Source of the DNA: Labilibaculum manganireducens
Lineage (GTDB): Bacteria > Bacteroidota > Bacteroidia > Bacteroidales > Marinifilaceae
Length of the DNA stretch: 64,000 nt
Direction: 5' to 3'
Assembly (NCBI RefSeq): GCF_002843385.1
Contig: NZ_MVDE01000005.1
Location: forward strand, 1 to 64,000
Shown here in pieces: positions 10,401 through 54,418 of the stretch (the stretch's first letter is position 1; every line of letters starts with the position of its first letter). The notes beneath the pieces were generated by a model, which did no database searches, was not told the DNA's origin, and worked only from the letters and a program-made list of their open reading frames with translations. The translations under genes and the position numbers were made by a program.

Positions 10401-10451
10401 AATTTGAAAAGTTAATATGAAAACACAAACTAATAAAATCATTTTTTTCAT
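7449..10451 (-). CDS. SusC/RagA-family TonB-linked outer-membrane protein
   Basis: 1000 residues: signal peptide (ends near IVNAQT), a carboxypeptidase-regulatory-like beta-sandwich (GTVTSADDGIGMPGVSVVIKG through residue 105), a TonB-dependent plug (EVVVVGYGKQ TonB-box region, GEGINIRVRGASSL, LKDASAASIYGSRASNGVVI), then a long barrel ending TYMFGVNLSF with the C-terminal aromatic. It forms the pore of a SusCD importer with the downstream lipoprotein. No STN secretin domain is present, so classical sigma/anti-sigma regulation through this protein is unlikely. Confidence 0.96.
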   Translation of the reverse strand: MKKMILLVCVFILTFQIVNAQTKQITGTVTSADDGIGMPGVSVVIKGTSSGTSTDIDGKYVLSVQSSDILLFSFVGMTPLEITVGNQSVINVSMEAEAIGMDEVVVVGYGKQIKSEMTGAISKVNVEGLQKVPSPSFETSMQGKTSGVFIQQSTGKLGEGINIRVRGASSLSASNQPLYVIDGVVVTSQDQGGTGNQPTNPISDLNFDDIASIQILKDASAASIYGSRASNGVVIITTKSGGKNKKTVINVNYSVSIAKETNRLDMLNTQEYVELLGEGMENSGWALSDGMNGEESILDWGGFTSIEETADTDWQDEMFRTAVSSNYNISASGGNEKTRFYSGLSYSDQQGILIDNDFKRISARLNLDHQISDKVDFGIKFNLVRSVLDRVSHDNAFSTPTQLIAQAPYFPAFDDSGEPFAGTFYFNGLLASRYNSYETLVYRTFANAYVTCDILPELSFKSVFGVDNLTQREDQYWSRKTDDGQPAGKSYLRNVNMLNYSFDNYFTYSKVFNENHSLEAVLGMSIQKAERFVSRVGGKGFPSDEFQTIASAAENDDFYSDRTEFSYLSYFSRMNYKFMDKYLATLSYRVDGSSKFGDDNRYGGFYAGSLGWIISKEDFLLDNPLVSFLKVRGSYGITGNSEIGNFPSRGLFSGTRYAGNSAIEPTQLANAKLQWEKTAQTDIGIDFGFFDNRINGEFDYYYKKTTDLLLDRLLPYTSGYSSIAENVGELENKGVEITLNTNNLIGDFTWSTSFNISFNKNEVTKLIDPIQRNVNRVMVGEPIGVFYMKKYAGVDPDNGDALYFIEDGSDETTNDYSLAKDIIVGDPNPDFFGGLDNTFSYEGFDARIFFQFVYGNDIYNDAGRFMSANGDWVDNQTRDQLKRWQQPGDITDIPQARFGDSNGTRTSSRWISDGSYIRLKDVTFGYTLPKRLTQKMNVNKVRIYFTGQNLWTHTNFKGWDPEVSAPGNNRTQLSTNIQQGIDYYSTPQAKTYMFGVNLSF

Positions 10452-11049
10452 AAAATAAATTTTAAATTAGAAATTAAATTGTGATCATAATTGATTCAAG
10501 ACAAATACTATCATGCCTTTTTAGAAACATACATCTACCCAACAAATCAACTCTTAAACAATAATGCCTGGCTTTGTTTTTAATAGAAGAAAGGATTAAC
10601 ATCCTCCTACAACAAACTAATTGCCGAAAAATTAATAATGGTAAATAGCAAAATCACCCTTTGAACAAGGGATGGTTCTCTTTAATGGGGAAAATCGAGA
10701 ATTAAAAACCTGAATACTAAGCTGATTAAAAATAAGCACTCAATTAAAACAAATTTTATATCTCAAGAGGATTAGCCATTGGGCTAGCGGGGCAAATTTT
10801 CCTGGTTATTTTAAAAGGTCAGGATCCTTAAGAAGAAAACAGAACAAATAAATACTTTCATAATTTAAGGTTTTAGGTTAGTAGGGCTATTTAAATATGA
10901 AAATTGACATCCTGAAAATCAGTTGCAAATTCAAAAATTAGATTCATCTCCATCCACTTTATTAAAATCATCAAACTACCACACTTACAAATGATTACAA
11001 AACCACTTACTCATTCAAGTTAAGACTTTTTTTTTTAATAATCCAAACA
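10452..11049. other. Non-coding gap upstream of susC
   Basis: About 600 AT-rich bases with stops in all frames. On the minus strand TAGTATTTG near 10506 is a near-match to the Bacteroidota -7 element and could drive susC, but it has one extra spacer base. Nothing else is recognised. Confidence 0.4.
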
Positions 11050-29057: not shown

Positions 29058-30146
29058 ATGACTAAAAGTATTGAGCAGATCTTACTGCAAGATCAATTCA
29101 CCAAAGACGATATTATTCGATTATTACAGTCGAAAGATGAAGATGAAAAAGCATTATTTGTGAAATCATCAGATACAAAACTAAAATATGTTGGAAGAAA
29201 TGTGCACTTCCGTGGATTGGTTGAATTCTCAAATATCTGTAAAAAAGATTGCCTTTATTGTGGAATTCGTGCGAGCAACAGCGCCGTAAACAGATACGAT
29301 ATTGCAGATGAAGAAATACTGAAAGCAGCAAAATTTGCTTACAAAAACAAATATGGTTCTTTAGTATTGCAATCGGGTGAAAGATCGGATCAAAAATTTA
29401 TTGATCGGATTGAGAACTTATTAAAAGAGATTAAAAAAATAAGTAATGATGAACTCGGAATTACCATTTCGTTAGGAGAACAAACTAAAGAAACTTATCA
29501 AAAATGGTTTGATGCTGGTGCTCACCGTTATTTATTGCGTATTGAATCGAGCAATAAAGAGCTCTACAATAAAATCCATCCTAACAACGAAGAACATTCG
29601 CACGAAACAAGGTTGAAATGTCTAAAATATCTTCAGGAAATTGGCTATCAAACCGGAACCGGAGTGATGATTGGAATTCCTTTTCAGACTTACGATGATT
29701 TAGCCAACGATCTGCTTTTTATGCAAAAGTTTGATATCGACATGGTTGGCATGGGACCATTTATTGAACACGATCAAACTCCAATGTATCAGTACAAAGA
29801 TCAATTAATGAGCCTGAATGATCGATTCAGACTTACACTAAAAATGATTGCCGTACTTAGAATCATGATGAAGGATATTAATATCGCCTCTGCTACAGCC
29901 CTGCAGGCTATTGATCCATTGGGAAGAGAAAAAGCACTGCGAATTGGAGCCAATATTATTATGCCCAATATTACACCAACCTCCGAAAGAGCAAATTATT
30001 TGCTATACCAAAACAAGCCTTGCATTGATGAAGGGGCAGATGATTGCACCAACTGTATGGAGGCCAGAATTAACATGGCCGATGGAGTAATTGGCTACGG
30101 AGAATGGGGAGATTCTCAACACTATCAAAAACGTAAAAACGAATAA
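29058..30146 (+). CDS. hydE: [FeFe]-hydrogenase H-cluster radical SAM maturase HydE
   Basis: 362 residues. Radical SAM motif CKKDCLYCG (Cys 61, 65, 68), preceded by VGRNVHFRGLVEFSNI, matches HydE/BioB-like enzymes. The optional second cluster triad C-X7-C-X2-C near the C terminus (PCIDEGADDCTNC) is also present, as in Thermotoga maritima HydE. It helps to build the dithiomethylamine-bridged diiron site. hydG is at 34469 on the other strand; hydF is not in the window. Confidence 0.95.
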   Translation: MTKSIEQILLQDQFTKDDIIRLLQSKDEDEKALFVKSSDTKLKYVGRNVHFRGLVEFSNICKKDCLYCGIRASNSAVNRYDIADEEILKAAKFAYKNKYGSLVLQSGERSDQKFIDRIENLLKEIKKISNDELGITISLGEQTKETYQKWFDAGAHRYLLRIESSNKELYNKIHPNNEEHSHETRLKCLKYLQEIGYQTGTGVMIGIPFQTYDDLANDLLFMQKFDIDMVGMGPFIEHDQTPMYQYKDQLMSLNDRFRLTLKMIAVLRIMMKDINIASATALQAIDPLGREKALRIGANIIMPNITPTSERANYLLYQNKPCIDEGADDCTNCMEARINMADGVIGYGEWGDSQHYQKRKNE

Positions 30147-34468: not shown

Positions 34469-35902
34469 CTAATAGTAAAGATCACGCTCTCCCTGCTTTA
34501 CCATCTCCAGGCGTTTGTGTAAATCCTCGGTTTTCTGGAAACCTTTCAATTCATTAATCTTCACTTCGATTAAATCATATCCCTTCTTTTTCATTTCTGG
34601 TGTGGCGTAATCCTCCAAATACTCAGCTAAAGTTAGAATCGCATTTTGAGAACAAAACCGTTTTATAAAGCCTGGAACAGAAAACTCCATAAAATGCTCA
34701 CCCGTTCTACCTTTCCGGTAACAGGCCGTACAGAATGAAGGCAAATACTTTTTCTCCAGAAGCTCATCAATCACTTCCGATAAACTACGGGGATCTCCAA
34801 TTTCGAATTGTTCCTGTTCTAATTTTTGCTCTTTAGCATTATCTTCGGAATATCCTCCTAATTGAATATTAGTGCCCGCATCAATCTGAGAAACCCCCAA
34901 TTTAATTACCTCTTCCCGGATTTCCTTTGACTCTCTGGCCGTTAGAATCATTCCAGTATAAGGAACTGCCAATCTAAGAATCGCAACCAGCCTAATAAAA
35001 TCCTTATCGCTGACTTCAAATTCCGGATCAATATTAGAATCGGAAGCTGCTTTAATTCGTGGGAAAGAGATCGTGTGTGGTCCAACATTATAACAAGCCT
35101 CGAAATGATTCACATGACGAAGCAAACCCAACACTTCATATTTCCAATCATACAAGCCAAACAATGCACCAATACCAACATCATCAATTAATGCCTCCTG
35201 TGCTCTGTCAAGACCGGTTAAGCGCCACTCAAAATCTCTCTTTTTACCACTTAAGTGATATTTAGCATATGCCTCCCTGTGGTAGGTTTCCTGAAAAATC
35301 TGATAGGTTCCAATCCCTGATTCCTTAACTATTTTAAACCCTTCAATATCAAGAGGAGCCGCATTGATGTTTACTCTCCGGATTTCACCATTACCCGATT
35401 TCACATCATAAACTGTTTTAACTGAATCAGCAATAAAATCAGCATCGTACATTGGGTGTTCACCATAAACCAAAATCAGTCTTTTTTGACCAGAATCTTC
35501 TAAGGCCTTTACTTCCGATTTAATTTGCTCGTGGGCAAGTGTTGTTCTTTTTTGTTTGATGTTTGAGGCTCTAAAACCACAGTACGTACAATTATTTACA
35601 CACTTATTCCCAATATACAACGGAGCAAAAATAACGATACGGTCACCATATACCTTTTCTTTAAGCTCTCTTGCTCCGGCTTTAATTTCTTCAATTAATT
35701 TTTCATCTTCAACCTTTAATAAAACCGCAGTCTCCTGCAAGCTTAATCGATTTTTATCCAATGACTTTCGAATAATCCGACGAACATTTTCTTCGGTTGG
35801 CTGGGCTTCTTCCAAAATCTCCCAAATTTCAGATTCATCAATAAAAGGTTTCATCCTTTCATCTTTAATCCGATACTCCTGAGGTTTGTAGATCATTTTC
35901 AT
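34469..35902 (-). CDS. hydG: [FeFe]-hydrogenase H-cluster radical SAM maturase HydG
   Basis: About 477 residues. Radical SAM motif CVNNCTYCGF (Cys near 101, 105, 108) and the C-terminal cluster C-X2-C-X22-C (SFCTACYRKGRTGEH...RFC) that binds the dangler iron. It cleaves tyrosine to supply CO and CN ligands of the H-cluster. I start at 35902 (MKMIYKPQEYRIKDERMKPF), giving the usual family length; 35896 is an alternative, and the frame to 35992 adds 30 atypical residues. Likely operon with the TM1266-type gene. Confidence 0.96.
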   Translation of the reverse strand: MKMIYKPQEYRIKDERMKPFIDESEIWEILEEAQPTEENVRRIIRKSLDKNRLSLQETAVLLKVEDEKLIEEIKAGARELKEKVYGDRIVIFAPLYIGNKCVNNCTYCGFRASNIKQKRTTLAHEQIKSEVKALEDSGQKRLILVYGEHPMYDADFIADSVKTVYDVKSGNGEIRRVNINAAPLDIEGFKIVKESGIGTYQIFQETYHREAYAKYHLSGKKRDFEWRLTGLDRAQEALIDDVGIGALFGLYDWKYEVLGLLRHVNHFEACYNVGPHTISFPRIKAASDSNIDPEFEVSDKDFIRLVAILRLAVPYTGMILTARESKEIREEVIKLGVSQIDAGTNIQLGGYSEDNAKEQKLEQEQFEIGDPRSLSEVIDELLEKKYLPSFCTACYRKGRTGEHFMEFSVPGFIKRFCSQNAILTLAEYLEDYATPEMKKKGYDLIEVKINELKGFQKTEDLHKRLEMVKQGERDLYY

Positions 35903-36053
35903 GTTTTGCGCTGTGTTGTCACGAAAAACGGATAGTATATACGACCCTGTATTTTCATGTATTTTGTTAGTTTCCAGATCAAAATTAAACATTATTATTC
36001 TGATTCAATAATAATTTAGAGTTTAAGATTTATTCTATTCCTTTTCTCAATTC

Positions 36054-41374: not shown

Positions 41375-41854
41375 CTATTTTTGGTATTCTTTTATAATAT
41401 CAGCTACGTCGCCAGCAGAAACACGTCCGTAAACGCGTTCTCCGATAGTAACAACCGGAGCTAGTCCGCAAGCTCCTACGCAACGCAAACAGCTTATTGA
41501 GAACTTGCCATCTTCGGTAGTTTCTCCAACAGGCACACTCAACTGACGTTTGAATTCTTCCAACACCTTCTCAGCACCTCTAACGTAACAAGCTGTTCCC
41601 ATACAAATAGAAATTGGGAATTCACCTTTGGGTACCATCGAGAAAAATGAATAGAATGTAACTACACCATACACATGAGCAACAGAAACGTTCAATTCGC
41701 GGGCAATGATTTCCTGAACTTCAGCTGGAAGATACCCAAAGGTCTCCTGAGCTTTATGAAGCACATTAATCAACTCGCTTCCTTCATTATCAAATGATTT
41801 GCAAATCTCCACAAGTTTATCCACTTTGGATTTTGCTAATTTAATTTTTGCCAT
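41375..41854 (-). CDS. hndA: NADH-dependent [FeFe]-hydrogenase, NuoE-like subunit
   Basis: 159 residues, thioredoxin-fold [2Fe-2S] protein. Ligands in CMGTACYVRGA and CLRCVGACGLAPV; the N-terminal helical part (LAKSKVDKLVEICKSFDNEG) fits NuoE/HydC. With the NuoF-like and catalytic subunits it makes a trimeric hydrogenase able to use NADH and ferredoxin together. Unusually it is the last gene, 98 bases after the catalytic subunit, with a repeat in between. Confidence 0.94.
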   Translation of the reverse strand: MAKIKLAKSKVDKLVEICKSFDNEGSELINVLHKAQETFGYLPAEVQEIIARELNVSVAHVYGVVTFYSFFSMVPKGEFPISICMGTACYVRGAEKVLEEFKRQLSVPVGETTEDGKFSISCLRCVGACGLAPVVTIGERVYGRVSAGDVADIIKEYQK

Positions 41855-41952: not shown

Positions 41953-43725
41953 CTATTCAATCTCAACATCTTTACTCTTATCGAAGTAATGAGTATGCAA
42001 TAATTTATGAGATAATTCACCGCATGGCTTACCCAGGAATTCTTCATACAATTTAATAATGTATGGATTCTCGTGAGACTTACGAATAGCTTTTCCTTCA
42101 TCTTCACGATAAAGAGCCGCTGCACGTTTTTTCAAGATAGAAGAATCACCATGGTGCAATGGCTGACCACCACCACCAATACAACCTCCAGGACAAGCCA
42201 TGATCTCAATTGCATGATATTGCGATTTACCATCACGGATATCTTCAAGAAGTTTACGGGCATTCCCCAAACCATGAGCAATACCAATATTAACATCCAG
42301 TCCATTAAAATCTACCGTAGCACTTCTAATACCTTCCATACCACGCAATGCCTCAAAATTCACATTCTCTAATGTTTTTCCGGTATAAACTTCATAAGCT
42401 GTACGGGCAGCAGCCTCAATAACACCACCCGTGGCACCAAAAATTACACCAGCACCAGTTGATTCACCAAGTGGATTATCAAATTCTTCATCAGGAAGAG
42501 TTTTTAAATCCATATTAGCCTGCTTAATCAAGTTCGCCAACTCACGGGTTGATATCGAATAATTAACATCAGGATCGCCGTCAACTTTAAACTCATCACG
42601 CTGACATTCGTATTTCTTAGCTAAACATGGCATAATGGAAACAACAATCATGTCTTCACGTTTAATTCCCATTTCCTTTGCCAAATAATTCTTGGCTATA
42701 GGACCAAACATTTGCTGAGGAGAACGAGCTGTAGAAGGAATATCCTTCATTTCAGGAAAATGGTGCTCAAAGAAATTCACCCATCCCGGACAACAAGAAG
42801 TTAGAATTGGTAATTTAACATCTTTATCACCATCCAAATGTCTTTTTAAGCGATCCAATAATTCGGTTCCTTCTTCCATAATGGTAAGGTCGGCAGCAAA
42901 ATCGGTATCGAAAACGCTGTTAAAACCTAACTGACGCAAAGCAGAAACCATTTTTCCGGTAACCAAAGTTCCCGGTTCCATTCCAAATTCTTCACCAAGA
43001 GCAGCACGCACAGCTGGAGCCGTTTGAACAACAACAGTTTTCTTAGGATCTGCAAGATCTCTGATCAGCTGATTGGTATGGTCTTTCTCGGTAAGAGCTC
43101 CTGTAGGACAAACTGCAACACACTGTCCGCAGTAAGTACAGGTTGATTTCTCTAAATCCATTTCGAATGCCGGAGCAACAACAGATTGGAAACCTCTGTT
43201 TACAGCAGAAAGAGCTCCAACCGTCTGTACATCGTTACACATGGTTTCACATCTGCGACACATAATGCATTTGTCCATATCGCGAATAATCGATGGAGAA
43301 TAATCAACTTTATAGGTTGATTGCTCACCTTTATAATGCAATTCGCGAACACCTAATTGTTGAGCTGTTGACTGCAAATCACAGTTTCCTGATTTTGCAC
43401 ACACCAAACAATCGAATGGATGATCTGAAAGCATCAGCTCCATTACAGTTTTACGTGCATTTAGCACTCTCATGTTATGAGTATGAATTACCATACCCTG
43501 CTCACACTTCGAATTACAAGATGGTGCCAAATTACGACGCCCCTCTACTTCAACAACACAAATTCGACATCCGCCGGGTTTGTGTTCAATTCCCATATCG
43601 CCAAGGTGCATATAGCAAAGAGTTGGGATATCAACACCTATTCCTTTGGCGGCTTCCAAAATAGTAGTTCCCTGAGGTACTTCTACTTGTTTTTTATCAA
43701 TGGTTAATTTGATCATTTTTTCCAT
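41953..43725 (-). CDS. hndD: [FeFe]-hydrogenase catalytic subunit (group A3, trimeric type)
   Basis: 590 residues. N-terminal [2Fe-2S] domain (GGCRICVVEVEG), His-ligated [4Fe-4S] (H102 with CLVCAKSGNC), two [4Fe-4S] (CIMCRRCETMC and CTYCGQCVAVC), then the H-cluster motifs TSCCPGW (310), MPCLAKKYE (367) and MACPGGCIGGGGQP, and a small C-terminal Fe-hydrogenase small-subunit-like tail. All ligands of an active prototypical enzyme are present. The ATG at 43725 is preceded by a full AGGAGG; a TTG two codons upstream is less likely. Confidence 0.97.
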   Translation of the reverse strand: MEKMIKLTIDKKQVEVPQGTTILEAAKGIGVDIPTLCYMHLGDMGIEHKPGGCRICVVEVEGRRNLAPSCNSKCEQGMVIHTHNMRVLNARKTVMELMLSDHPFDCLVCAKSGNCDLQSTAQQLGVRELHYKGEQSTYKVDYSPSIIRDMDKCIMCRRCETMCNDVQTVGALSAVNRGFQSVVAPAFEMDLEKSTCTYCGQCVAVCPTGALTEKDHTNQLIRDLADPKKTVVVQTAPAVRAALGEEFGMEPGTLVTGKMVSALRQLGFNSVFDTDFAADLTIMEEGTELLDRLKRHLDGDKDVKLPILTSCCPGWVNFFEHHFPEMKDIPSTARSPQQMFGPIAKNYLAKEMGIKREDMIVVSIMPCLAKKYECQRDEFKVDGDPDVNYSISTRELANLIKQANMDLKTLPDEEFDNPLGESTGAGVIFGATGGVIEAAARTAYEVYTGKTLENVNFEALRGMEGIRSATVDFNGLDVNIGIAHGLGNARKLLEDIRDGKSQYHAIEIMACPGGCIGGGGQPLHHGDSSILKKRAAALYREDEGKAIRKSHENPYIIKLYEEFLGKPCGELSHKLLHTHYFDKSKDVEIE

Positions 43726-43734
43726 ATTCAAGAT

Positions 43735-43740
43735 CCTCCT
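43735..43740 (-). promoter_or_regulatory. Strong Shine-Dalgarno site before hndD
   Basis: AGGAGG read on the minus strand, 9 bases before the ATG at 43725 and fused to the stop codon of the preceding gene. Such full sites are scarce in this window, so it decides the start and suggests high translation. Confidence 0.7.
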
Positions 43741-45533
43741 TACTGTATGCTTATTGCATTAAACTTACACTTCTCCATACACGCACCACACTTAATACAT
43801 TTCGATGCATCAATGATATGAGCTTCTTTACGTTCACCTGCGATACAATCAACAGGGCAATTACGTGAGCATAGAGTACAACCTACACACAATTCAGGAT
43901 CAATTACATATTGCATTAAAGCCTTACATTGTCCTGCAGCACACTTATGATCTTCTACGTGAGAAATATACTCGTCATAAAAATTCTCAAGTGTTGAAAG
44001 AACCGGATTTGGAGATGTTTGTCCCAATCCGCAAAGAGAAGTATCTTTAATTACAGTACTCAAATTTCTTAACAGATCCAGATCTTCTCTAGTTCCATTC
44101 CCTAGAGTGATTTTATCCAACAATTCGTGAAGACGCTTGTTGCCAACACGACATGGTGTACATTTACCACAAGATTCTTCAACAGTAAATTCCAAATAAA
44201 ATTTAGCCATCGACACCATACAATCATCCTCATCCATAACAATCATACCACCCGATCCCATCATAGAACCTGCAGCAATCAAATTATCAAAATCGATAGG
44301 AGTATCTAAATGCTTTTCTGTTAAACATCCTCCTGAAGGACCACCTGTCTGAACAGCCTTGAATTTTTTACCATCTTTAATACCTCCGCCAATTTCGTAA
44401 ATTACTTCACGAAGAGTGGTTCCCATTGGCACTTCAATTAAACCAACATTGTTGATTTTTCCGGCCAATGCGAATACTTTAGTACCTTTAGATTTCTCGC
44501 TTCCAATTTTATTGAACCAACTTGCTCCTTTGTTAATGATAACAGGAATATTTGCAAAGGTTTCAACATTATTTACGTTCGTTGGCTTTCCGTTGTACCC
44601 AGATTCAGCAGGAAACGGAGGTTTAACGGTAGGTTCACCACGAAGACCTTCCATCGAATGAATCAAAGCCGTTTCTTCACCACAAACAAATGCTCCGGCT
44701 CCGTAACGCATTTCAACATCGAAATTAAATCCGGAACCTAAAATATCGTTGCCTAACAAACCGTATTCACGAGCTTGCTTAATCGCAACTTTTAATCGGG
44801 TAATCGCCAAAGGATACTCAGCACGAATATAAATCACACCTTTATCGGCTCCCATGGTGTATCCACAAATAGCCATAGCCTCCAGAACTGAGTGCGGATC
44901 ACCTTCCAGAATAGAACGATCCATAAATGCTCCGGGGTCTCCCTCGTCAGCATTACAAACTACATATTTTTGATCAGCTTCATTTTTTGCTGCAAATTCC
45001 CATTTTAAACCAGTTGGGAATCCTCCTCCTCCCCGTCCGCGTAATCCTGATTCCTTAATCTCATCGATTACCGTCTGCGGAGTCATTTCAGCCAAACACT
45101 TACCCAAGGCTGCATAACCATCTCTTGCAATGTATTCATCAACATTTTCAGGATTAATAAATCCACAATTTCGAAGCGCAATTCGAATTTGCTTTTTATA
45201 AAATCCCATGTGTTTCGAATCACTAATCGTTTCTTTATTCTCAGGATCAACATAAAGCAATCTCATTACTTTACGACCCTTAATAATATGCTCTTCAATC
45301 AGCTCTTCTGCATCTTCAGGTTTCACTTCCACATAGAAAGTATTATCCGGAAGAATTTTAACAATAGGGCCTTTTTCACAAAATCCGAAGCAACCGGTCA
45401 TTACAACCTGTACTTCATCTTCAAGTCCTTTGGCTTTAATTGCATCTTGCAAATTATTTTGAATAGCCTCACTGGCAGAAGCCCGGCAGCCGGTACCTCC
45501 ACAAATAAGAATATGCATTTTGTACTTTTCCAT
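43740..45533 (-). CDS. hndC: NADH-dependent [FeFe]-hydrogenase, NuoF-like subunit
   Basis: 597 residues. N-terminal thioredoxin-like [2Fe-2S] (CGGTGCRAS), NuoF core with FMN site GRGGGGFPTGLKWEF, NADH site GAGAFVCGEETALIHSMEG, [4Fe-4S] ESCGKCTPCRVG, and a C-terminal 2[4Fe-4S] domain (CVGCTLCSRNC and CIKCGACMEKC). This is the diaphorase subunit of trimeric, electron-bifurcating hydrogenases. An alternative start is MHILICGGTGC five codons on. 14 bases before hndD. Confidence 0.96.
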   Translation of the reverse strand: MEKYKMHILICGGTGCRASASEAIQNNLQDAIKAKGLEDEVQVVMTGCFGFCEKGPIVKILPDNTFYVEVKPEDAEELIEEHIIKGRKVMRLLYVDPENKETISDSKHMGFYKKQIRIALRNCGFINPENVDEYIARDGYAALGKCLAEMTPQTVIDEIKESGLRGRGGGGFPTGLKWEFAAKNEADQKYVVCNADEGDPGAFMDRSILEGDPHSVLEAMAICGYTMGADKGVIYIRAEYPLAITRLKVAIKQAREYGLLGNDILGSGFNFDVEMRYGAGAFVCGEETALIHSMEGLRGEPTVKPPFPAESGYNGKPTNVNNVETFANIPVIINKGASWFNKIGSEKSKGTKVFALAGKINNVGLIEVPMGTTLREVIYEIGGGIKDGKKFKAVQTGGPSGGCLTEKHLDTPIDFDNLIAAGSMMGSGGMIVMDEDDCMVSMAKFYLEFTVEESCGKCTPCRVGNKRLHELLDKITLGNGTREDLDLLRNLSTVIKDTSLCGLGQTSPNPVLSTLENFYDEYISHVEDHKCAAGQCKALMQYVIDPELCVGCTLCSRNCPVDCIAGERKEAHIIDASKCIKCGACMEKCKFNAISIQ

Positions 45534-45553: not shown

Positions 45554-45946
45554 TTAGTCTAGAGTTTTGTAGTTTACAGGTATTATTCCGTCGACCAATT
45601 CACCATTTTTAATGTATTTTTCAACAATTTGGTCAGCTTTTTTAATATCTACATCGCCAAAAACGATGGGCTCTTTCCCAGGAATCTGAACCTCAATTGT
45701 AGGTTCTGCATAGCAATATCCCATACATCCGGTTTGGGTAACTACAGTCCGAATTCCTCTTTTTGCTGTTTCTTCGATAAGGAATTCCATTACCTCTTTA
45801 GCTCCTGAGGCAATTCCACATGTAGCCATTGCAACTTTAATCTGCACAAGGCCTTCCGGATCGTTGCTTTTCTCCCTAAGATCCATCTTCGACTGAAGCT
45901 CTTCTTTCATTCTCTTCAGATCTGCAAGGGATTTAACTTTTGCCAT
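45554..45946 (-). CDS. hndB: Thioredoxin-like [2Fe-2S] ferredoxin (HndB-like)
   Basis: 130 residues; charged N-terminal helix, then the [2Fe-2S] ligand set in MATCGIASGAKEVM and TGCMGYCYAEPTIEV. These proteins accompany NuoF-like hydrogenase subunits in clostridia, Desulfovibrio and Thermotoga (TM1420 type). Probably an accessory electron-transfer subunit. 20 bases before hndC. Confidence 0.9.
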   Translation of the reverse strand: MAKVKSLADLKRMKEELQSKMDLREKSNDPEGLVQIKVAMATCGIASGAKEVMEFLIEETAKRGIRTVVTQTGCMGYCYAEPTIEVQIPGKEPIVFGDVDIKKADQIVEKYIKNGELVDGIIPVNYKTLD

Positions 45947-45972: not shown

Positions 45973-46512
45973 TTATATTATTGTGTTTAGGTTCTCGTTT
46001 ATTAATTCCTTTAAATACTGCATAATATTTGGATCTGTTACCGAAACATCTTCCAGTATTTCTTTTACTTCTTTTGTGTCAAAAATATATTCGCCCTTTA
46101 TTGTATGATGCTTATATATAAAATCCATATTTGGATTTGCACTCACCAACAACACTATAACTCCGGCAATATCCCCGATCACGGGTCTGTCAATATTTTT
46201 ATGAGAAAACAAAACCTGAAGTTCTGTTCCAACTCCCTCTTTAGAATGAATTTCCAACTTACCTCCTGTTTGCTCCGCACTTTGCTTTAACAGCGATAAA
46301 CCCAATCCAACTTTACGTGTGGTTCGGGTAGTGAAAAAAGGATCCAATACTTTGCTCAGAACTTCATCCGACATTCCACATCCATCATCTTTAATGAATA
46401 TTGAATAAATATCTTTCTCCAAATCCTCCCGAATCTCCAATTCAACATTGGAAGCCTCAGCTCTCACCGAATTTTGAATAATATCCATTATATGTAAAGA
46501 CAGATCTTTCAT
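45973..46512 (-). CDS. Histidine-kinase-like ATPase of the hydrogenase cluster
   Basis: 179 residues: HATPase_c fold with N-box DIIQNSVRAEASNVE, G1 DDGCGMSDEVL, and GLGLSLLKQSAEQTGG; a short non-kinase C-terminal part (residues 105-179) follows. There is no dimerisation/phospho-His domain, so it is not a standard sensor kinase. Homologues of this kind sit in [FeFe]-hydrogenase operons (Thermotoga TM1422 region type, from memory). Could be a protein kinase or anti-sigma-like switch. 26 bases before hndB. Confidence 0.85.
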   Translation of the reverse strand: MKDLSLHIMDIIQNSVRAEASNVELEIREDLEKDIYSIFIKDDGCGMSDEVLSKVLDPFFTTRTTRKVGLGLSLLKQSAEQTGGKLEIHSKEGVGTELQVLFSHKNIDRPVIGDIAGVIVLLVSANPNMDFIYKHHTIKGEYIFDTKEVKEILEDVSVTDPNIMQYLKELINENLNTII

Positions 46513-46546
46513 ATTCGCTTTAGGTTAAAGCTATTAGCTAAAAGCA

Positions 46547-46924
46547 TTATTTGCATTTCACTTTATAAATTTCAGATTTAAGTTTATTAATAAACCCACT
46601 AATCATTTTTTCTTCTTCCTAAATAATAGATAACAACAACTTAACGCTCTCCTGATTCGAGTAGTTCAATTCTTGAACTAATAATAATTGTGTCTCCAAT
46701 TCGAATAATGATCCCAATGCTATTTCTAAAAATCTGACAAAATCTTTATCACTTCCTCTGCTGCAACCCTCCGCTATATTTGAAGGAACCGAAACTGCAG
46801 CTCTACACATCTGACTCTTCAGACCGTATTTTTCCTCATTGGGAAACATTGCAGTTAAATCATATGTCTTTGTTACAATCGACATACCTTTCTGCCATAC
46901 AACTAAAGATCTAAAATTTCTCAT
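46547..46924 (-). pseudogene. Four-helix-bundle (S23-type) protein with in-frame TAG
   Basis: The 101-residue frame (MRNFRSLVVWQKGMSIVTKT; AAVSVPSNIAEGCSRGSDKD) is a four-helix-bundle / 23S-IVS-type protein. It stops at TAG (46621-46619), yet the same frame runs on as EEEKMISGFINKLKSEIYKV to a TAA at 46549-46547, which is the normal end of this family. Full length would be 125 residues. The gene interrupts the hydrogenase signalling module and is flanked by repeats, suggesting a decaying insertion. Alternatively the short form works. Confidence 0.65.
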
Positions 46925-46937
46925 CCATCAAATCTTC

Positions 46938-46993
46938 CTCTTTTACCTTTCACCATTTGCCTTTTGCCTTTTGCCTTTCACCTATTACCTTTT
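46938..46993. repeat. TTTGCCTTTTGCC simple repeat
   Basis: CCATTTGCCTTTTGCCTTTT followed by GCCTTTCACCTATTACC. A short-period A/G-rich repeat (AAAGGCA on the other strand) common in Bacteroidota gaps. It overlaps the last codons of the PHP gene. Confidence 0.6.
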
Positions 46994-47730
46994 TCCAACT
47001 CAACTGTTCTTCCATCCTCTCCTTTTAAAGCCATTCTGATCTCAGAAAAACTGGCTTCTTTCATCGTTAACCTGCTGCATACATTACCTATATTATCGAC
47101 ATAATGCGCATCAGAACTTTGGATAAAAGTATAGCCTTTTAGATACTTATTCTTACTTAAAAACTCATCTTTCGTGATATGCATTGAAATTTCCAAAGCA
47201 TCCACTTTTAAATCCGGCGGCAAAAAACCCAGTTGACTAATAATACTATTTTGCGCTTTATTGATATGAGCCGGAATAAACAAACCTTTAAGTTCATGAA
47301 CTTTCTGCTCCACCTCATTGATTCCCTGATTCAAGCCTGATATCAACAAATTATCTATTTCCTGTACAATCTCTTCCTCTTCATTCACCACAACCTGATA
47401 TCCAAAGTATTTTGTATCATTTGGAATCTTAGGCAAATGTTGATCAAGGTAAATTTGAAAATCAGAAAGCAAGTGTTCAGTTTCAAAAAAGCACAAACAA
47501 TGAACTTCTTCTTTGGTGGTAACCTCTGCTCCCATCATCACCATAATTCCTTCTTTTTCTGCCAGCTGCCTGATTAATGCAGCATGCAAGGTTGAATTGT
47601 GATCTGTTATTCCCAAAATGTCAACACCACGTTCTTTTGCGATCCGAACGATATTCACAGGACTCATTTCTAAATCTCCGCAAGGAGACAGAACAGTATG
47701 AGTATGCAAATCAGCTCGAAAAACTTTCAT
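46978..47730 (-). CDS. PHP-domain phosphoesterase
   Basis: 250 residues. Metal-binding PHP motifs in order: DLHTHTVLSPCGD, GITDHNS, GAEVTTKEEVH, IPAHINKAQ and QSSDAHYVDN. Related single-domain proteins hydrolyse phosphate monoesters or act on nucleotides. In hydrogenase clusters of clostridia and Thermotoga a PHP protein is a regular companion, and it may oppose the neighbouring ATPase/kinase (inference). The final residues VELEKGNR are encoded by a simple repeat. 10 bases after the DRTGG gene. Confidence 0.9.
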   Translation of the reverse strand: MKVFRADLHTHTVLSPCGDLEMSPVNIVRIAKERGVDILGITDHNSTLHAALIRQLAEKEGIMVMMGAEVTTKEEVHCLCFFETEHLLSDFQIYLDQHLPKIPNDTKYFGYQVVVNEEEEIVQEIDNLLISGLNQGINEVEQKVHELKGLFIPAHINKAQNSIISQLGFLPPDLKVDALEISMHITKDEFLSKNKYLKGYTFIQSSDAHYVDNIGNVCSRLTMKEASFSEIRMALKGEDGRTVELEKGNR

Positions 47731-47740
47731 TTCAATTCAT

Positions 47741-48076
47741 TTACTTCTTCAACAGATCAAACAATTTCCCAGTTAATTCAAAAGCCTCTTCTTCCGAAGA
47801 TAAAATAGGGATTCCTTCTACATTGCTTTGTTCTGCAGCATCTGCTTCCGGTTCATATCCTTTCACAAGAATTATTGCCGCCAACTCCTTTAAAGAGGCA
47901 ATTGCCATGATGTTTTTATGAGTTTGCAAAGTAATCCAAACCTGATTCTCATCTGCGTTTCCCATCACATCACTTAAAAGATCAGAAGTATATCCTCCTT
48001 CAATTTCGCGATTCAAACCCGCAGATCCACTGCACACTTTTAATCCCAGCTTATCAACTATGTCTTGTACTTTCAT
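47741..48076 (-). CDS. DRTGG-domain protein 2
   Basis: 111 residues: MKVQDIVDKLGLKVCSGSAG, GGYTSDLLSDVMGNADENQV and AAIILVKGYEPE. The domain, found in phosphotransacetylases and CBS proteins, is thought to bind ligands. A homologous 115-residue copy lies at 49986. Together with PHP and ATPase proteins it forms the hydrogenase-linked module. Its upstream flank is repeat copy B. Confidence 0.82.
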   Translation of the reverse strand: MKVQDIVDKLGLKVCSGSAGLNREIEGGYTSDLLSDVMGNADENQVWITLQTHKNIMAIASLKELAAIILVKGYEPEADAAEQSNVEGIPILSSEEEAFELTGKLFDLLKK

Positions 48077-48102
48077 GTGTCTAAATTGTTTTTTTTTGTC
48101 AC

Positions 48103-48190
48103 ATAGCCTGTCCCGAACTTGTTTCGGGAGAACTTACCATTATAATCATTTCCCTGTGTGTAGAAAGCTTTATACATGGACGTTTCATCA
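48103..48190 (+). repeat. 90-base palindromic interspersed repeat, copy B
   Basis: Same ends and hairpin as copy A; similarity extends about 35 bases left (TTCATGTGTCTAAATTG vs TTCATGTATCTAAATTTG). It lies inside the hydrogenase module, between the H-cluster protein gene and DRTGG gene 2, and so could split the transcript. Confidence 0.85.
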
Positions 48191-48191
48191 T

Positions 48192-49559
48192 CTAATGATC
48201 GTTAATATTTTTCTTTTCAAATCTTTTTACGCCCCAGGTATTTTCTGAGATATCAAAAGACTCCTGAGGAGTAATCAGGCCTTCTTTTGTCAGCATCTTC
48301 TGTAAAAAAACACATTGTGTCATCTTGGCTTTTCCTTGTACCACATCCTCTGCTAAAGCCTGACAACGCGGGGCACCACAAGCACCACAATCGATACTTG
48401 GTAAAACTTTTAGAATGCGATTGATCTTCTCCATTTTTTTCATCGCCTCCATCATATCAGTATCCAAACTTAAGATGGAGCGGGGTTCAATACTCTTAAT
48501 GGAAATGTTCTTCAACAAATATGGTCTATACTCTTCAATTTCCTTTGGCTCAAGTATTATCGGTTTATTTCGATGATACCAATCTGCTCTTTTCCGTAAT
48601 CTCTCTATGGCTAAAAATCTATTTTCTGTAGTTAAAACACCACCTGCACAAGAATGGTCGCAAGCACGTAACTCCAAGAAATCAACATCCGTAATTTCCT
48701 CATTCTCTAACTTCTCAAGAACCTCAATTACATTATGAATTTCATCTATAGCCAAGCATCTGCCTGAATATTGTGATGCTTCTCCATTGGTTAATGTCCA
48801 GCCAATGCTTCTTCTGGATATGTGTTTGTTCAATTCATATTTTAGCTCTTTCGATTTGTTTTGCTTAATACTTAGCAATACTTTATTGTATATGAAATCC
48901 ATATTGATAACACCATCAATAAAAGATTTATCTTCGCCAACAGGACTTTTCACTGCCGCAATTTTTGCCGCACATGGAGTCACGTAGAAAATCCCGACTT
49001 CATCATCGCTAAACCCTTCATTTTTTAGTTTTTCACGATAAAATATAGCTGAAATATCAATCACCGGCTTTAAGTGAATAATATGTTCAACCAAGGCAGG
49101 GAACTTAACCTGAATTAAGCGAACGATTGCAGGACAAAAGCTGGAAATAAACGGACGTTCCTGATGATGCTTCTGCATGTAAGTTTTAGTAACTTCCGTA
49201 AGAATATCGGCAGTTTCGTCCACCTCATATACATGAGTAAAACCTAACTCAAGGATAACGGAATAGATTTGTTTTTCGGAAATATCATCCGGAAATTGCC
49301 CTAAAAGAACGGTTGGAAGAAGAGCAACACGTTGTTTATAATGGAAAATTTGAGAAAAGTCATCCTGCTCAACGATAATCGCATTAACCGGACACGAATT
49401 TAAACACTCGCCACAATCAACACAGGCATTTTTATTAATATCAGCAATTCCATTTTTCACACGAATTGCCGAAGTTGGACACACATTCATACAATGTGTA
49501 CAACCAATGCAAACTTCCTCAACCACTTTAAGAGCATGATAAAAATGAGCCTTCTCCAT
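48192..49559 (-). CDS. Divergent [FeFe]-hydrogenase-like H-cluster protein (sensory type)
   Basis: 455 residues. N-terminal 2[4Fe-4S] (CIGCTHCMNVC, CVDCGECLNSC), then an H-cluster domain with modified motifs: SSFCPAIVRL (C142), VTPCAAKI (C196), RACDHSCAGGV (C300, C304). The four cluster cysteines are kept but the proton-relay Cys of TSCCP is Phe. The C-terminal [4Fe-4S] domain CGACGAPRC...C (391-416) is of the Fe-S/PF04060 kind. No PAS or kinase domain. This matches the sensory (group C/D-like) set rather than a bulk catalyst; an H2/redox sensor is inferred. Confidence 0.85.
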   Translation of the reverse strand: MEKAHFYHALKVVEEVCIGCTHCMNVCPTSAIRVKNGIADINKNACVDCGECLNSCPVNAIIVEQDDFSQIFHYKQRVALLPTVLLGQFPDDISEKQIYSVILELGFTHVYEVDETADILTEVTKTYMQKHHQERPFISSFCPAIVRLIQVKFPALVEHIIHLKPVIDISAIFYREKLKNEGFSDDEVGIFYVTPCAAKIAAVKSPVGEDKSFIDGVINMDFIYNKVLLSIKQNKSKELKYELNKHISRRSIGWTLTNGEASQYSGRCLAIDEIHNVIEVLEKLENEEITDVDFLELRACDHSCAGGVLTTENRFLAIERLRKRADWYHRNKPIILEPKEIEEYRPYLLKNISIKSIEPRSILSLDTDMMEAMKKMEKINRILKVLPSIDCGACGAPRCQALAEDVVQGKAKMTQCVFLQKMLTKEGLITPQESFDISENTWGVKRFEKKNINDH

Positions 49560-49566
49560 CTTCTTT

Positions 49567-49980
49567 TTATTTCAGATAGTTAACGATTTCTAGTTTTGTT
49601 CCAACATTAACTTTACTACTAATATTCATTTCATCTGAATTCTTTTTTATATTCGGTAATCCCATACCGGCACCAAAACCCATTTCACGGACTTTAGGAG
49701 TTGCCGTAGAAAATCCTTTTTCCATTGCTTTTTCGATATCAGGAATTCCTGGTCCTTTATCTTCGATTCTCACTGCTATTTTATCCGGAAATATTTCCAC
49801 AATCATATCTCCTTCGAAAGCGTGTGCGACCACGTTCACTTCAGCCTCATACAATGAAACCACAGTTCGTTTAATTATCTTCGAATCAACATTTAATTGC
49901 TTCAATATTTTTTTCACTTCACTGGAAGCTGATCCTGCCTTAGAAAAATTTCCCCCCTCAATAAAAAATGCAAACTCCAT
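49567..49980 (-). CDS. RsbW-like anti-sigma-type ATPase
   Basis: 137 residues, single HATPase_c domain: YEAEVNVVAHAFEGDMIVEI, IEDKGPGIPDIEKAMEKGFS and GFGAGMGLPNIKKNSDEM. The fold is that of SpoIIAB/RsbW serine kinases. Between DRTGG gene 1 (5 bases) and the H-cluster protein (7 bases), so tightly cotranscribed. No anti-anti-sigma (STAS) or sigma gene lies nearby; its target is unknown. Confidence 0.88.
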   Translation of the reverse strand: MEFAFFIEGGNFSKAGSASSEVKKILKQLNVDSKIIKRTVVSLYEAEVNVVAHAFEGDMIVEIFPDKIAVRIEDKGPGIPDIEKAMEKGFSTATPKVREMGFGAGMGLPNIKKNSDEMNISSKVNVGTKLEIVNYLK

Positions 49981-49985
49981 CTCTT

Positions 49986-50333
49986 TTAATATACTGGTTC
50001 TAAACCCATTTCACACAACATAGAACATGCTTTAAACATTGAATAACCGCATTCAATCAGCGTAATATTATTCTCACAAGCCAAGTCTTTCATTTCCTGC
50101 GAGACCTTCTTATCCCGCACAAATAAAATGAAAGAAATGTCAGACATTTCAGATGTCCTAATTGTCTGAAGATTATTTAACCCCGTAATTAGTAACAGGT
50201 TATCTGTATCTAATGTTAGTACATCACTCATCAAGTCTGATGCAAAACCAAAATTTATATCCTGATTCAGATCATCTTTTCCACAAATAACACTTGCATT
50301 AAGTTTATCAACCAGATCAGCCACTTTCACCAT
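49986..50333 (-). CDS. DRTGG-domain protein 1
   Basis: 115 residues: MVKVADLVDKLNASVICGKD, FGFASDLMSDVLTLDTDNL and ITLIECGYSMFKACSMLCEM. Paralogue of the protein at 47741. First gene of the hydrogenase/sensor cluster. Likely a ligand-binding regulatory domain. Confidence 0.82.
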   Translation of the reverse strand: MVKVADLVDKLNASVICGKDDLNQDINFGFASDLMSDVLTLDTDNLLLITGLNNLQTIRTSEMSDISFILFVRDKKVSQEMKDLACENNITLIECGYSMFKACSMLCEMGLEPVY

Positions 50334-50660
50334 ATCGCAGTACTAACTTATGTTTATCATTTATTCTATTCCGATTGCGCTAAGATAAGTATTTGAGCAG
50401 GATTAATAAATGATATATAACGGAATAGATACAAAAAAATAAAATACATATTAAATCTAAATAACTCTATAATGACAAAACAGATCCTGATAAATTACAA
50501 TTTCACACTTCAATACAATTATAAATCAGCAAACATTTTATGTCAATACAATTGTTCTAAATTCTTATAGGTTTAGAATCAAAGTGACAAGTTTTTTTTG
50601 ATTATATTCGCATACAAGTGCTGAACACAAGGACTCCATTACTTATTTTTTTCTTTATTA
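50334..50660. other. Divergent non-coding gap before the hydrogenase cluster
   Basis: AT-rich, no frame. No clear TAnnTTTG toward the cluster; TATATTCG near 50600 is a one-mismatch -7 element toward the stress-protein gene. No Rex box was found by eye. Confidence 0.35.
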
Positions 50661-54058: not shown

Positions 54059-54418
54059 TTATGAATTACGTACCCTTATCGTTTTCTGGATGCTTCCAAT
54101 TATTCTAAGCAATTCATCAGTATCACTTAGAAGACTTTGACATTCTTCTTTTGTAAGATAACCCGTATCACCAAGCAACCTGATCCAATAATGTGTTTCT
54201 CTTGCTTCTTTATACGATATTGTTAGCTTGGCAAAAAAATCTTTCTCACTTTGTCCTCCAATTGCTTCTTCAATGTTAGCTCCAATTGAAGTTCCGGATC
54301 GTAACAACTGTTTGGATAATATATATTCCTTTTTTTCTTGTTGTAAATACTTACAGGTTTTCACTATTCGAACTGCAAATTGATAACTTTTTTGTTGTAC
54401 GATATTATCTTTTTTCAT
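54059..54418 (-). CDS. Four-helix-bundle (S23-type) protein
   Basis: 119 residues: MKKDNIVQQKSYQFAVRIVK, LRSGTSIGANIEEAIGGQSE and IGSIQKTIRVRNS. Intact relative of the broken gene at 46547. Function of these small helical proteins is unknown. Both flanks are AATTCGTAATT/AATTATGAATTACG strings, and the last codons (RNS, stop) come from this repeat, so the gene may have arrived with it. Confidence 0.85.
   Translation of the reverse strand: MKKDNIVQQKSYQFAVRIVKTCKYLQQEKKEYILSKQLLRSGTSIGANIEEAIGGQSEKDFFAKLTISYKEARETHYWIRLLGDTGYLTKEECQSLLSDTDELLRIIGSIQKTIRVRNS

Follow-up and report, generated by a model that had tools for sequence, protein, structure and literature searches.

Group D [FeFe]-hydrogenases, which are called putative H2 sensors, have been described upstream of bifurcating hydrogenases and near a kinase (PMC3561251, PMC3608648), and a regulatory relationship has been suggested for them (PMC3561251, PMC8163306). 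One member of this group, TamHydS of Thermoanaerobacter mathranii, has been characterized (PMC8163306, PMC13104023) and is reported to react with H2 (PMC13104023). Here we consider a related gene in the first 64,000 nucleotides of contig NZ_MVDE01000005.1 from Labilibaculum manganireducens (Bacteroidales), a stretch that we refer to as the window. The gene encodes a group D-type putative sensor, HydS, and is one of six genes that precede a bifurcating hydrogenase operon on the same strand. Judged by their loci, their order and their invariant catalytic residues, the six genes are one module, and this module is not tied to hydrogenase: its partners are HydABC, Rnf, NuoEF with an HdrA-like subunit, and formate dehydrogenase. 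Because it adjoins such varied ferredoxin/NADH electron-exchange enzymes in many bacterial groups, the module would seem to be a shared redox switch and not something that belongs to hydrogenases alone. We hypothesize that it may be an Fe-S/redox-gated switch, made up of kinase and PHP phosphatase, for those ferredoxin:NAD(H) enzymes whose flavin domain is of the NuoF/RnfC type, with H2 sensing optional, a reading that we hold tentatively and as not quite an even call.

The original prediction had placed two DRTGG proteins, two GHKL ATPases, a PHP phosphoesterase and an H-cluster protein on one strand before hndB-C-D-A, with gaps of 5-10 bases in places. By Pfam and NCBIfam all six are present, in an operon that runs on the minus strand from 50333 to 41375 in the order DRTGG-1, GHKL-1, HydS, DRTGG-2, PHP, GHKL-2, hndB, hydB, hydA, hndA. 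Successive genes are separated by 5, 7, 115, 10, 53 and 106 (on either side of an insert), 26, 20, 8 and 98 bases, so that gaps of 5, 7, 8 and 10 bases do occur and the others span 20-115. That account overlooked the insert, an open reading frame (ORF) at 46619-46924. The features are as follows.

49986-50333, minus strand: DRTGG-1, 115 amino acids, first gene, with S36 in the motif SDLMSDV (PF07085 28.3 bits, cut-off 25.2)
49567-49980, minus strand: GHKL-1, SpoIIAB/RsbW-like predicted serine kinase, 137 amino acids (PF13581 E-value 9.6e-10, PF02518)
48192-49559, minus strand: HydS, group D (M2e)-type [FeFe]-hydrogenase-like putative sensor, 455 amino acids (PF02906, two Fer4 matches, C-terminal FeS domain PF04060)
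47741-48076, minus strand: DRTGG-2, 111 amino acids, with S35 in the motif SDLLSDV (PF07085 24.3 bits, slightly below the cut-off)
46978-47730, minus strand: PHP phosphoesterase, 250 amino acids (PF02811)
46619-46924, minus strand: inserted four-helix-bundle (23S_rRNA_IVP-like) ORF, 101 amino acids (PF05635 E-value 1.9e-36)
45973-46512, minus strand: GHKL-2, 179 amino acids, a stand-alone histidine-kinase-like ATPase domain with a C-terminal extension (PF02518)
45554-45946, minus strand: hndB, thioredoxin-like [2Fe-2S] subunit (PF01257 21.8 bits, cut-off 24.8; aligns with 56 relatives)
43740-45533, minus strand: hydB/hndC, NuoF-type subunit for flavin mononucleotide (FMN) and NADH, Complex1_51K (PF01512 E-value 1e-46)
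41953-43731, minus strand: hydA/hndD, catalytic [FeFe]-hydrogenase, group A6 (NF040763 903 bits, cut-off 765)
41375-41854, minus strand: hndA/hydC, NuoE-type subunit (HoxE and NuoE models, all under their cut-offs)
34469-35992, minus strand: hydG maturase, outside the operon (TIGR03955 508 bits, cut-off 312)
29058-30146, plus strand: hydE maturase, outside the operon (TIGR03956 354 bits, cut-off 254.6)

The inserted ORF sits between PHP and GHKL-2 beside short repeats. It is missing from a locus of the same genus (L132), where PHP and GHKL-2 almost abut, and among 78 relative loci a related piece stands at the same place only in L143, from another genus. We take it as a passenger outside the module.

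Each of the 78 relative loci represents a different genus; 76 are from the window's order and family and two from other parts of the phylum. All six module genes are present in 63 of them, and in every one of the 63 they share a strand and keep their order. The six-gene set also recurs in loci from many phyla among public species genomes (the best 80 of 576 loci were taken, 78 with a HydS ORF above threshold). This neighbourhood survey bears out the conserved co-occurrence that the original prediction expected. Where enough sequence is available, the upstream DRTGG protein and GHKL-1 are found in 75/76 loci, the downstream DRTGG protein in 65/74, PHP in 66/74 and GHKL-2 in 65/74. HydS itself occurs in 46/56 family genomes, 113/393 genomes in a sample of the order and 3/296 in a sample of the phylum, the window genome being counted each time.

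The genes keep company beyond a single locus. Among the 392 other genomes of the order sample, 109 have both HydS and PHP, 3 HydS only, 7 PHP only and 273 neither. Two of the three HydS-only genomes are of a short type, and the third (G470) has a partial HydS match only; among the PHP-only genomes, G383, G440, G443 and G628 were read, G365 and G594 end at a contig edge and G327 was left out. The module splits into two halves, half A (DRTGG-1, GHKL-1, HydS) and half B (DRTGG-2, PHP, GHKL-2). Half A, or part of it, stands alone in five relative loci (L070, L094, L103, L111, L128), and each of these genomes has PHP elsewhere. Separate half-B loci are found with hndB-hydB-hydA-hndA (L230, L236, L238) and with no adjoining hydrogenase (L231, L232, L234, L235, L237); L229 and L233 are cut by contig ends, the half-B genes are not all recognized in L231, L232 and L238, and the contig of L238 ends just past PHP. 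Because the two halves are retained together even at separate loci, a shared function is suggested rather than simple hitch-hiking.

What stands next to the module varies with the lineage. HydB lies downstream in 55 of the 70 relative loci with at least 7.5 kb of downstream sequence, as would be expected of a sensor devoted to that hydrogenase. Genes for Rnf come directly after the module in Caloranaerobacter azorensis and Clostridiaceae M8S5. C. azorensis belongs to a Clostridia-type order, Tissierellales by NCBI taxonomy, in which 48 of 120 genomes searched have HydS; 39 of these were fetched, giving 40 loci (one genome twice), G737 and G738 correspond to loci L219 and L212, and seven were left out. 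The module precedes rnfCDGEAB, with rnfC after it, in 38 of the 40 loci (in L277 with one ORF in between), the two without rnfC being L256, a second HydS copy, and L258. Ignavibacteria, Aminicenantes, Chlorobiaceae, Sumerlaeota and other groups contribute a further 13 loci, where NuoF (NuoEF-type) comes after the module together with a third subunit that resembles HdrA and is not a hydrogenase; since L174 repeats L146, 12 of them are distinct, and L145 and L146 came from the search for relatives. The HdrA-like subunit was assessed by NCBIfam in L158 (HdrA2 462 bits, below its cut-off of 1100), by Pfam in L158 and L174, and elsewhere by similarity to L158. Short-form loci have NuoG-like or GltD/NuoG-like proteins next, where a partner is seen.

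One member of the Bacteroidales (G383) carries DRTGG-1, GHKL-1, DRTGG-2, PHP, GHKL-2, hndB and hydB, then a formate dehydrogenase in the place of hydA (TIGR01591 901 bits, cut-off 666), and has no HydS. The NADH/FMN domain PF01512 is common to HydB and RnfC. The bifurcating hydrogenase, which the original prediction made the essence of the system, is thus replaced as neighbour by Rnf, by NuoEF-HdrA and, in one genome, by formate dehydrogenase. GHKL-2 is placed between hndA and hndB in many Bacillota loci. As a separate observation, in L194, L209 and L222 HndA, GHKL-2, HndB and HydB stand after the module and lead on to rnf genes, and no hydA was recognized in the interval.

If the module need not serve a hydrogenase, is H2 its signal? 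The alternative, on which the original prediction rested, is that HydS has a complete H-cluster and senses H2 solely on behalf of the bifurcating hydrogenase. The window genome, which has HydE and HydG (both in the window) as well as HydF, fits this view, as does the reported reaction of TamHydS with H2, and the same genome carries two pairs of a second HydS type with a SpoIIE-like phosphatase (see below). However, the Rnf, HdrA-type and formate dehydrogenase partners count against it, and so does the distribution of maturases and catalytic subunits. HydF scores over its cut-off in 34 of 43 genomes tested (just under in G628), and HydG in 9 of 41, with none among the 12 HdrA-linked genomes. 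A control search for HydA covered 39 genomes and listed matches down to about 65 bits, so that H-domains as divergent as that of HydS would escape it. Eleven genomes (G172, G743, G863-G869, G874, G877) have HydS with the four cysteines, no HydG and no catalytic HydA among the matches listed. HydF was not found in G172 and G743, the two of these that were tested; G172 is 99% complete, the only one of the 11 for which a completeness figure is given. The reverse case is G876, with HydG and no catalytic-domain HydA among the matches listed. As an aside, L283 (G796) and L285 (G777) come from genomes without HydG and have a radical-SAM ORF with a weak match to the HydG model, which is HydE only by guess; its neighbour is HydF in G796, and in G777 it fits HydF by size only.

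The residues of HydS point the same way. By Pfam it has two N-terminal [4Fe-4S] sites, an H-domain and a C-terminal [4Fe-4S] domain and lacks PAS, the domain arrangement of group D. Residue counts were made on 160 grouped sequences out of 196 aligned HydS relatives (HydS ORFs of at least 330 bits, leaving out diverged copies such as that of L242): 74 Bacteroidales, 23 Bacillota with hydrogenase, 13 HdrA-linked, 40 Rnf-linked and 10 short-form or similar, with fewer where a gene is missing. L149, L150 and L174 repeat L107, L087 and L146, and the grouped counts include the repeat L174. The four H-cluster cysteines, C142, C196, C300 and C304, are invariant in the 160 and are present in 79/79 of the aligned HydS. 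The position of C299 in the hydrogenase CpI, residue 141 by equivalence of motif, is Phe in the window HydS and in 67/74 Bacteroidales; keeping the four cysteines while replacing this one is again a group D character. At the position of CpI M497, 71/74 Bacteroidales have Arg. With Arg and Phe at these two places, the Bacteroidales HydS does not look like a standard H2 site. From the 11 genomes we conclude only that HydS, over some of its range, can probably do without a diiron site. The Bacteroidales substitutions also weigh against a dedicated H2 sensor, which we consider decidedly unlikely. H2 as a necessary signal is not borne out, since HydS occurs with other partners and in the 11 genomes where HydG was not found and no catalytic HydA was listed; for the same reasons we treat H2 as an optional signal in our preferred reading.

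An AlphaFold2 model of HydS has a mean predicted local distance difference test score (pLDDT) of 89.5, and its 50 best Foldseek matches are all [FeFe]-hydrogenase or HydA-type chains. The HydS of L242 (G628) is much diverged, with changed motifs around the cysteines; a loss of H-cluster cysteines there was considered and rejected, as the alignment keeps all sixteen cysteines checked. Fusions of HydS to GHKL-1 were sought in nine suspicious loci and none was found. In L226 a HydS at 8890-10737 has a C-terminal extension rich in CxxC motifs that has no Pfam name.

The partner that HydS would gate is GHKL-1. Its closest solved structure is SpoIIAB (1til, E-value 2.6e-10), which, with its PF13581 match, agrees with the RsbW-like character predicted for one of the two ATPases. 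E45 and N49, aligned to the SEAVTN of SpoIIAB, are invariant in 158 grouped relatives, and we take them to be the catalytic Glu and the Mg-binding Asn of the N-box. GHKL-1 falls below the curated family cut-offs, with 54.1 bits for TIGR01925 (cut-off 135) and with 27 and 22.7 bits for RsbW models (cut-offs 145 and 155). The module also has two small DRTGG proteins. DRTGG-1 exceeds the Pfam cut-off, and its AlphaFold2 model (pLDDT 96.8) matches the DRTGG fold 2ioj with a template modelling score of 0.81 and HPr kinase/phosphatase more weakly; DRTGG-2 is just under the cut-off and is placed by alignment. Matches of the DRTGG profile to designed Pizza proteins were spurious, and a single search with DRTGG-2 gave one match, due to chance. 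S36 of DRTGG-1 is kept in 152/154 grouped upstream DRTGG proteins and S35 of DRTGG-2 in 144/144 grouped downstream ones; in the DRTGG-1 model this serine lies in a short helix, residues 35-39. Natural DRTGG-GHKL-1 fusions exist in seven distinct loci (L087/L150, L107/L149, L151, L165, L166, L169, L173), which comprise both short-form and complete modules. Three of them were scanned by Pfam, with DRTGG over the cut-off in L173 and just under in L107 and L151.

The likeness of GHKL-1 to SpoIIAB and RsbW could be taken literally, with GHKL-1 an anti-sigma factor, DRTGG its antagonist, and transcription controlled by partner switching. In Bacillus, SpoIIE and SpoIIAB are the phosphatase and kinase of one substrate. 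A SpoIIE-like phosphatase is present in 8 of the 78 relative loci, in six of them with a HydS paralogue beside it, and also in L239, and in the order sample HydS and SpoIIE co-occur (both 85, HydS only 27, SpoIIE only 43, neither 237). However, no STAS antagonist, sigma factor or DNA-binding protein was found by a Pfam scan of the ten window operon proteins, and a single gene set would need to work for operons and phyla that differ widely. We therefore regard this explanation as highly improbable. A classical two-component system was likewise set aside, as Pfam finds HATPase domains only, and no HisKA/DHp domain, in GHKL-1 or GHKL-2.

The second HydS type is found in the window genome (L147, contig C1, 4010-10364) as two tandem pairs of a group C-like HydS with a SpoIIE-like phosphatase, and a small [2Fe-2S] thioredoxin-like ORF lies between them. 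Pfam at 1e-5 finds no PAS domain in this HydS, and the group C label is by resemblance. In a KSB1 bacterium (L167, 1904-3964), an H-cluster domain, HisKA and HATPase are joined in one ORF upstream of a group D module.

The PHP protein has the complete metal site of its family: within the PF02811 domain, the nine ligand positions H9, H11, D43, H44, E69, H77, H155, D207 and H209 are invariant in 142 grouped relatives. It could in principle act on a nucleotide, and the module might then be a nucleotide-signal system in which DRTGG binds the nucleotide, PHP hydrolyses it and the GHKL ATPases read it. The DRTGG fold is common to the regulatory part of CBS-DRTGG pyrophosphatase, and several relatives of PHP have nucleic acids or nucleotides as their substrates. 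However, no synthetase is recognized in the module by Pfam or NCBIfam, and GHKL-1 is SpoIIAB-like rather than a nucleotide enzyme, which makes this a distinctly improbable account.

GHKL-2 raises a different question. Its closest Protein Data Bank sequence is the CA domain of sporulation kinase B (KinB, 3d36), and its acidic N-box residue D10, aligned to the kinase Asn, and N14 are invariant in 139 grouped relatives. GHKL, PHP and DRTGG could instead be assembly or cofactor-insertion factors for NuoF/RnfC-type flavin-Fe-S complexes, with HydS as an Fe-S scaffold. The module goes with the flavin core and not with one catalytic subunit, the acidic residue of GHKL-2 is ATPase-like, and HydE of Acetobacterium woodii, an ATP-binding protein that is not part of the active enzyme, has been proposed to serve in 'assembly or signalling' (PMC3315566), all of which would suit such a role. 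Against this, Syntrophus HydAB, albeit a dimeric, non-bifurcating enzyme, showed activity after expression in E. coli (PMC7311640), and GHKL-1 is closest among solved structures to SpoIIAB. We consider assembly or repair unlikely.

We return, then, to a redox-gated switch. What we observe is the make-up of the module, the co-retention of its genes, their conserved residues, naturally fused DRTGG and GHKL domains and a range of target enzymes. The signal, the kinase substrate, the phospho-site, the order of steps, the direction of control, the target subunit and an action on the enzyme rather than on transcription are our inference; as to the last, Pfam finds no DNA-binding domain in the six proteins. 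HydS would read the reduction state of the low-potential pool via its Fe-S clusters, and would also read H2 where a full H-cluster is made. It would gate the SpoIIAB-type kinase GHKL-1, whose substrate would most likely be the DRTGG proteins; in these, the Ser conserved within SDL(M/L)S is the candidate phosphorylation site, and PHP would reverse the reaction. GHKL-2 and DRTGG-2 may form a second, enzyme-proximal half that acts on the shared NuoF/RnfC-type flavin complex. Of the original prediction, the conserved gene set, an RsbW/SpoIIAB-type protein, a PHP protein (here seen to have a complete metal site) and an H-cluster-type protein upstream of a bifurcating hydrogenase are supported, and a regulatory link is plausible, while the hydrogenase as the essence is not supported.

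A wider statement is possible, although we think it doubtful: that the [FeFe]-hydrogenase fold serves as a general Fe-S redox sensor, partly without the diiron site, driving a non-transcriptional kinase/phosphatase switch in which DRTGG replaces the STAS substrate of SpoIIAB-type kinases. Such a switch would set how active the ferredoxin:NAD(H) machine of a given lineage is, be it HydABC, Rnf, NuoEF-HdrA or formate dehydrogenase. If true, anaerobes would share a post-translational control of the ferredoxin/NADH balance, which would matter for ATP yield and for the shares of H2, formate and reduced products. In either form, the module gives the putative H2 sensors of group D fixed partners and candidate phospho-sites, and the same kit stands before Rnf and other ferredoxin:NAD(H) enzymes. 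The module makes the question of the HydS partner directly testable.

Several findings weigh against the redox-gated switch. Several short-form loci, two of them in Bacteroidales, lack half B altogether. No HydB lies downstream in 15 of the 70 relative loci with sufficient sequence, and a group A HydA is nevertheless present somewhere in 21 of the 22 genomes examined for such loci (all except G296). Loci L240 and L241 have no HydS and still have a hydrogenase downstream, so the idea that HydS is lost only with a non-hydrogenase target was dropped, and its loss is not specific to the formate dehydrogenase case. With HydS absent from G383, L240 and L241 and diverged in L242, the rest of the module can do without it. 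The acidic N-box residue of GHKL-2 would suit an ATPase or a chaperone no less than a kinase. In TamHydS, H2 does not reduce the C-terminal cluster, and redox signalling via that cluster has been called unlikely (PMC13104023). Finally, searches for maturases are also negative in genomes with full-length HydA: many Rnf-linked genomes with full-length HydA matches are also negative for HydG, and HydF is negative in G758, G782, G789, G797 and G837 despite a full-length HydA. L290, L291 and L294 carry a canonical HydABC with canonical HydA motifs, and HydG was not found in their genomes (G758, G789, G773), nor HydF in the two of these tested, G758 and G789. Maturases were not among the ORFs checked near such operons (in L290 three beside HydA and one upstream of the operon, in L293 two beside HydA, in L292 one near HydA). 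The maturases may escape detection, or these genomes may retain HydA in their absence; HylABC-FdhF2, a formate dehydrogenase complex that has hydrogenase-like subunits and for which no H-cluster is listed, is known (PMC5861303). The absence of HydF and HydG was therefore dropped as proof of no hydrogenase, because L290, L291 and L294 carry canonical HydA motifs, and since maturase absence alone must be read with care, our claim of an H2-free HydS is limited to the 11 genomes.

The flanks of the window operon hold few signals of their own. A terminator-like stem follows hndA at 41357-41331 (terminator-like scan), and at 50546-50518 there is an exact TTGACA-17-TATAAT, but the region as a whole has 26 promoter-like matches where shuffles have 33.2, and the promoters of this group may not follow that consensus. 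The Bacteroidetes-type promoter consensus is TTTG-N-TAnnTTTG, and no match to it occurs in the gap upstream of DRTGG-1 or in the gap between HydS and DRTGG-2. A Rex box was considered and set aside: the window has 10 matches where 9.95 are expected, and DRTGG-1 has none upstream. Upstream of DRTGG-1, at 50400-50470, eight genomes of the family share a strong, partly palindromic footprint, TTATTTAGA-T-AATAT and TTCTTATCTTAG; in the relative set 12/76 have it with 0-1 mismatch against about 3.5 expected from shuffles, a small excess. Elsewhere in the window are a second four-helix-bundle (23S rRNA IVP-like) ORF at 54059-54418 and, at its edge, a match to group II intron D1-D4 (RF02001) at 44-216.

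How does the module compare with described systems? TamHydS shares with the window HydS the N-terminal Fer4 sites, the H-domain, the C-terminal [4Fe-4S] domain, the lack of PAS, the replaced proton-path Cys and an adjoining histidine-kinase-like ATPase gene (PMC8163306, PMC13104023). By a constant offset of 12, applied to published residue names only, its D378, C379, E392, D393 and C404 would correspond to D390, C391, E404, D405 and C416; of the charged residues near the C-terminal cluster, D390 is found in 78/79 and D405 in 77/79, and E404 is nearly invariant. By the same offset, S384 and D403 of TamHydS do not match their counterparts A396 and Q415. The M497 position is Arg in the window HydS and Leu in TamHydS, and the M353 position Thr and Ser, respectively. 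An AraC-type regulator also flanks the TamHydS gene, unlike the arrangement here.

HydE of A. woodii (Awo_c27000) is, like GHKL-2, a stand-alone histidine-kinase-type ATP-binding protein inside a bifurcating hydrogenase operon (PMC3315566), a likeness of description and position alone. A matching gene set is the operon Halsa_1862-1871 of Halanaerobium hydrogeniformans, for which are listed a hydrogenase, NADH dehydrogenase, ferredoxin-like protein, histidine kinase, NuoE and PHP, together with two Fe-S/hydrogenase-like proteins, an anti-sigma/Ser-Thr kinase and one more ORF (PMC4237134). It differs in being a gene list only: the parts of that paper available to us discuss no module, function or other targets. 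The group C-type HydS with SpoIIE likewise pairs an H-cluster-type protein with a phosphorylation enzyme, twice in the window genome, but is a separate family, with a SpoIIE-type phosphatase instead of the PHP of the module. SpoIIAB and RsbW share the fold family and N-box Glu/Asn positions of GHKL-1, whereas the module has no STAS partner or sigma factor and has DRTGG in the neighbouring place, sometimes fused.

The link to Rnf, HdrA and formate dehydrogenase, the two halves and the DRTGG fusion were not found in the open-licence literature as far as it was accessible, which is weak evidence of absence. The hydrogenase link and a suggested regulatory role are already in print in the sources cited. 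What is new here is the recognition of the six genes as one module, its non-hydrogenase targets, the DRTGG-GHKL-1 fusions, and the persistence of HydS in 11 genomes for which HydG was not found and no catalytic HydA match was listed.

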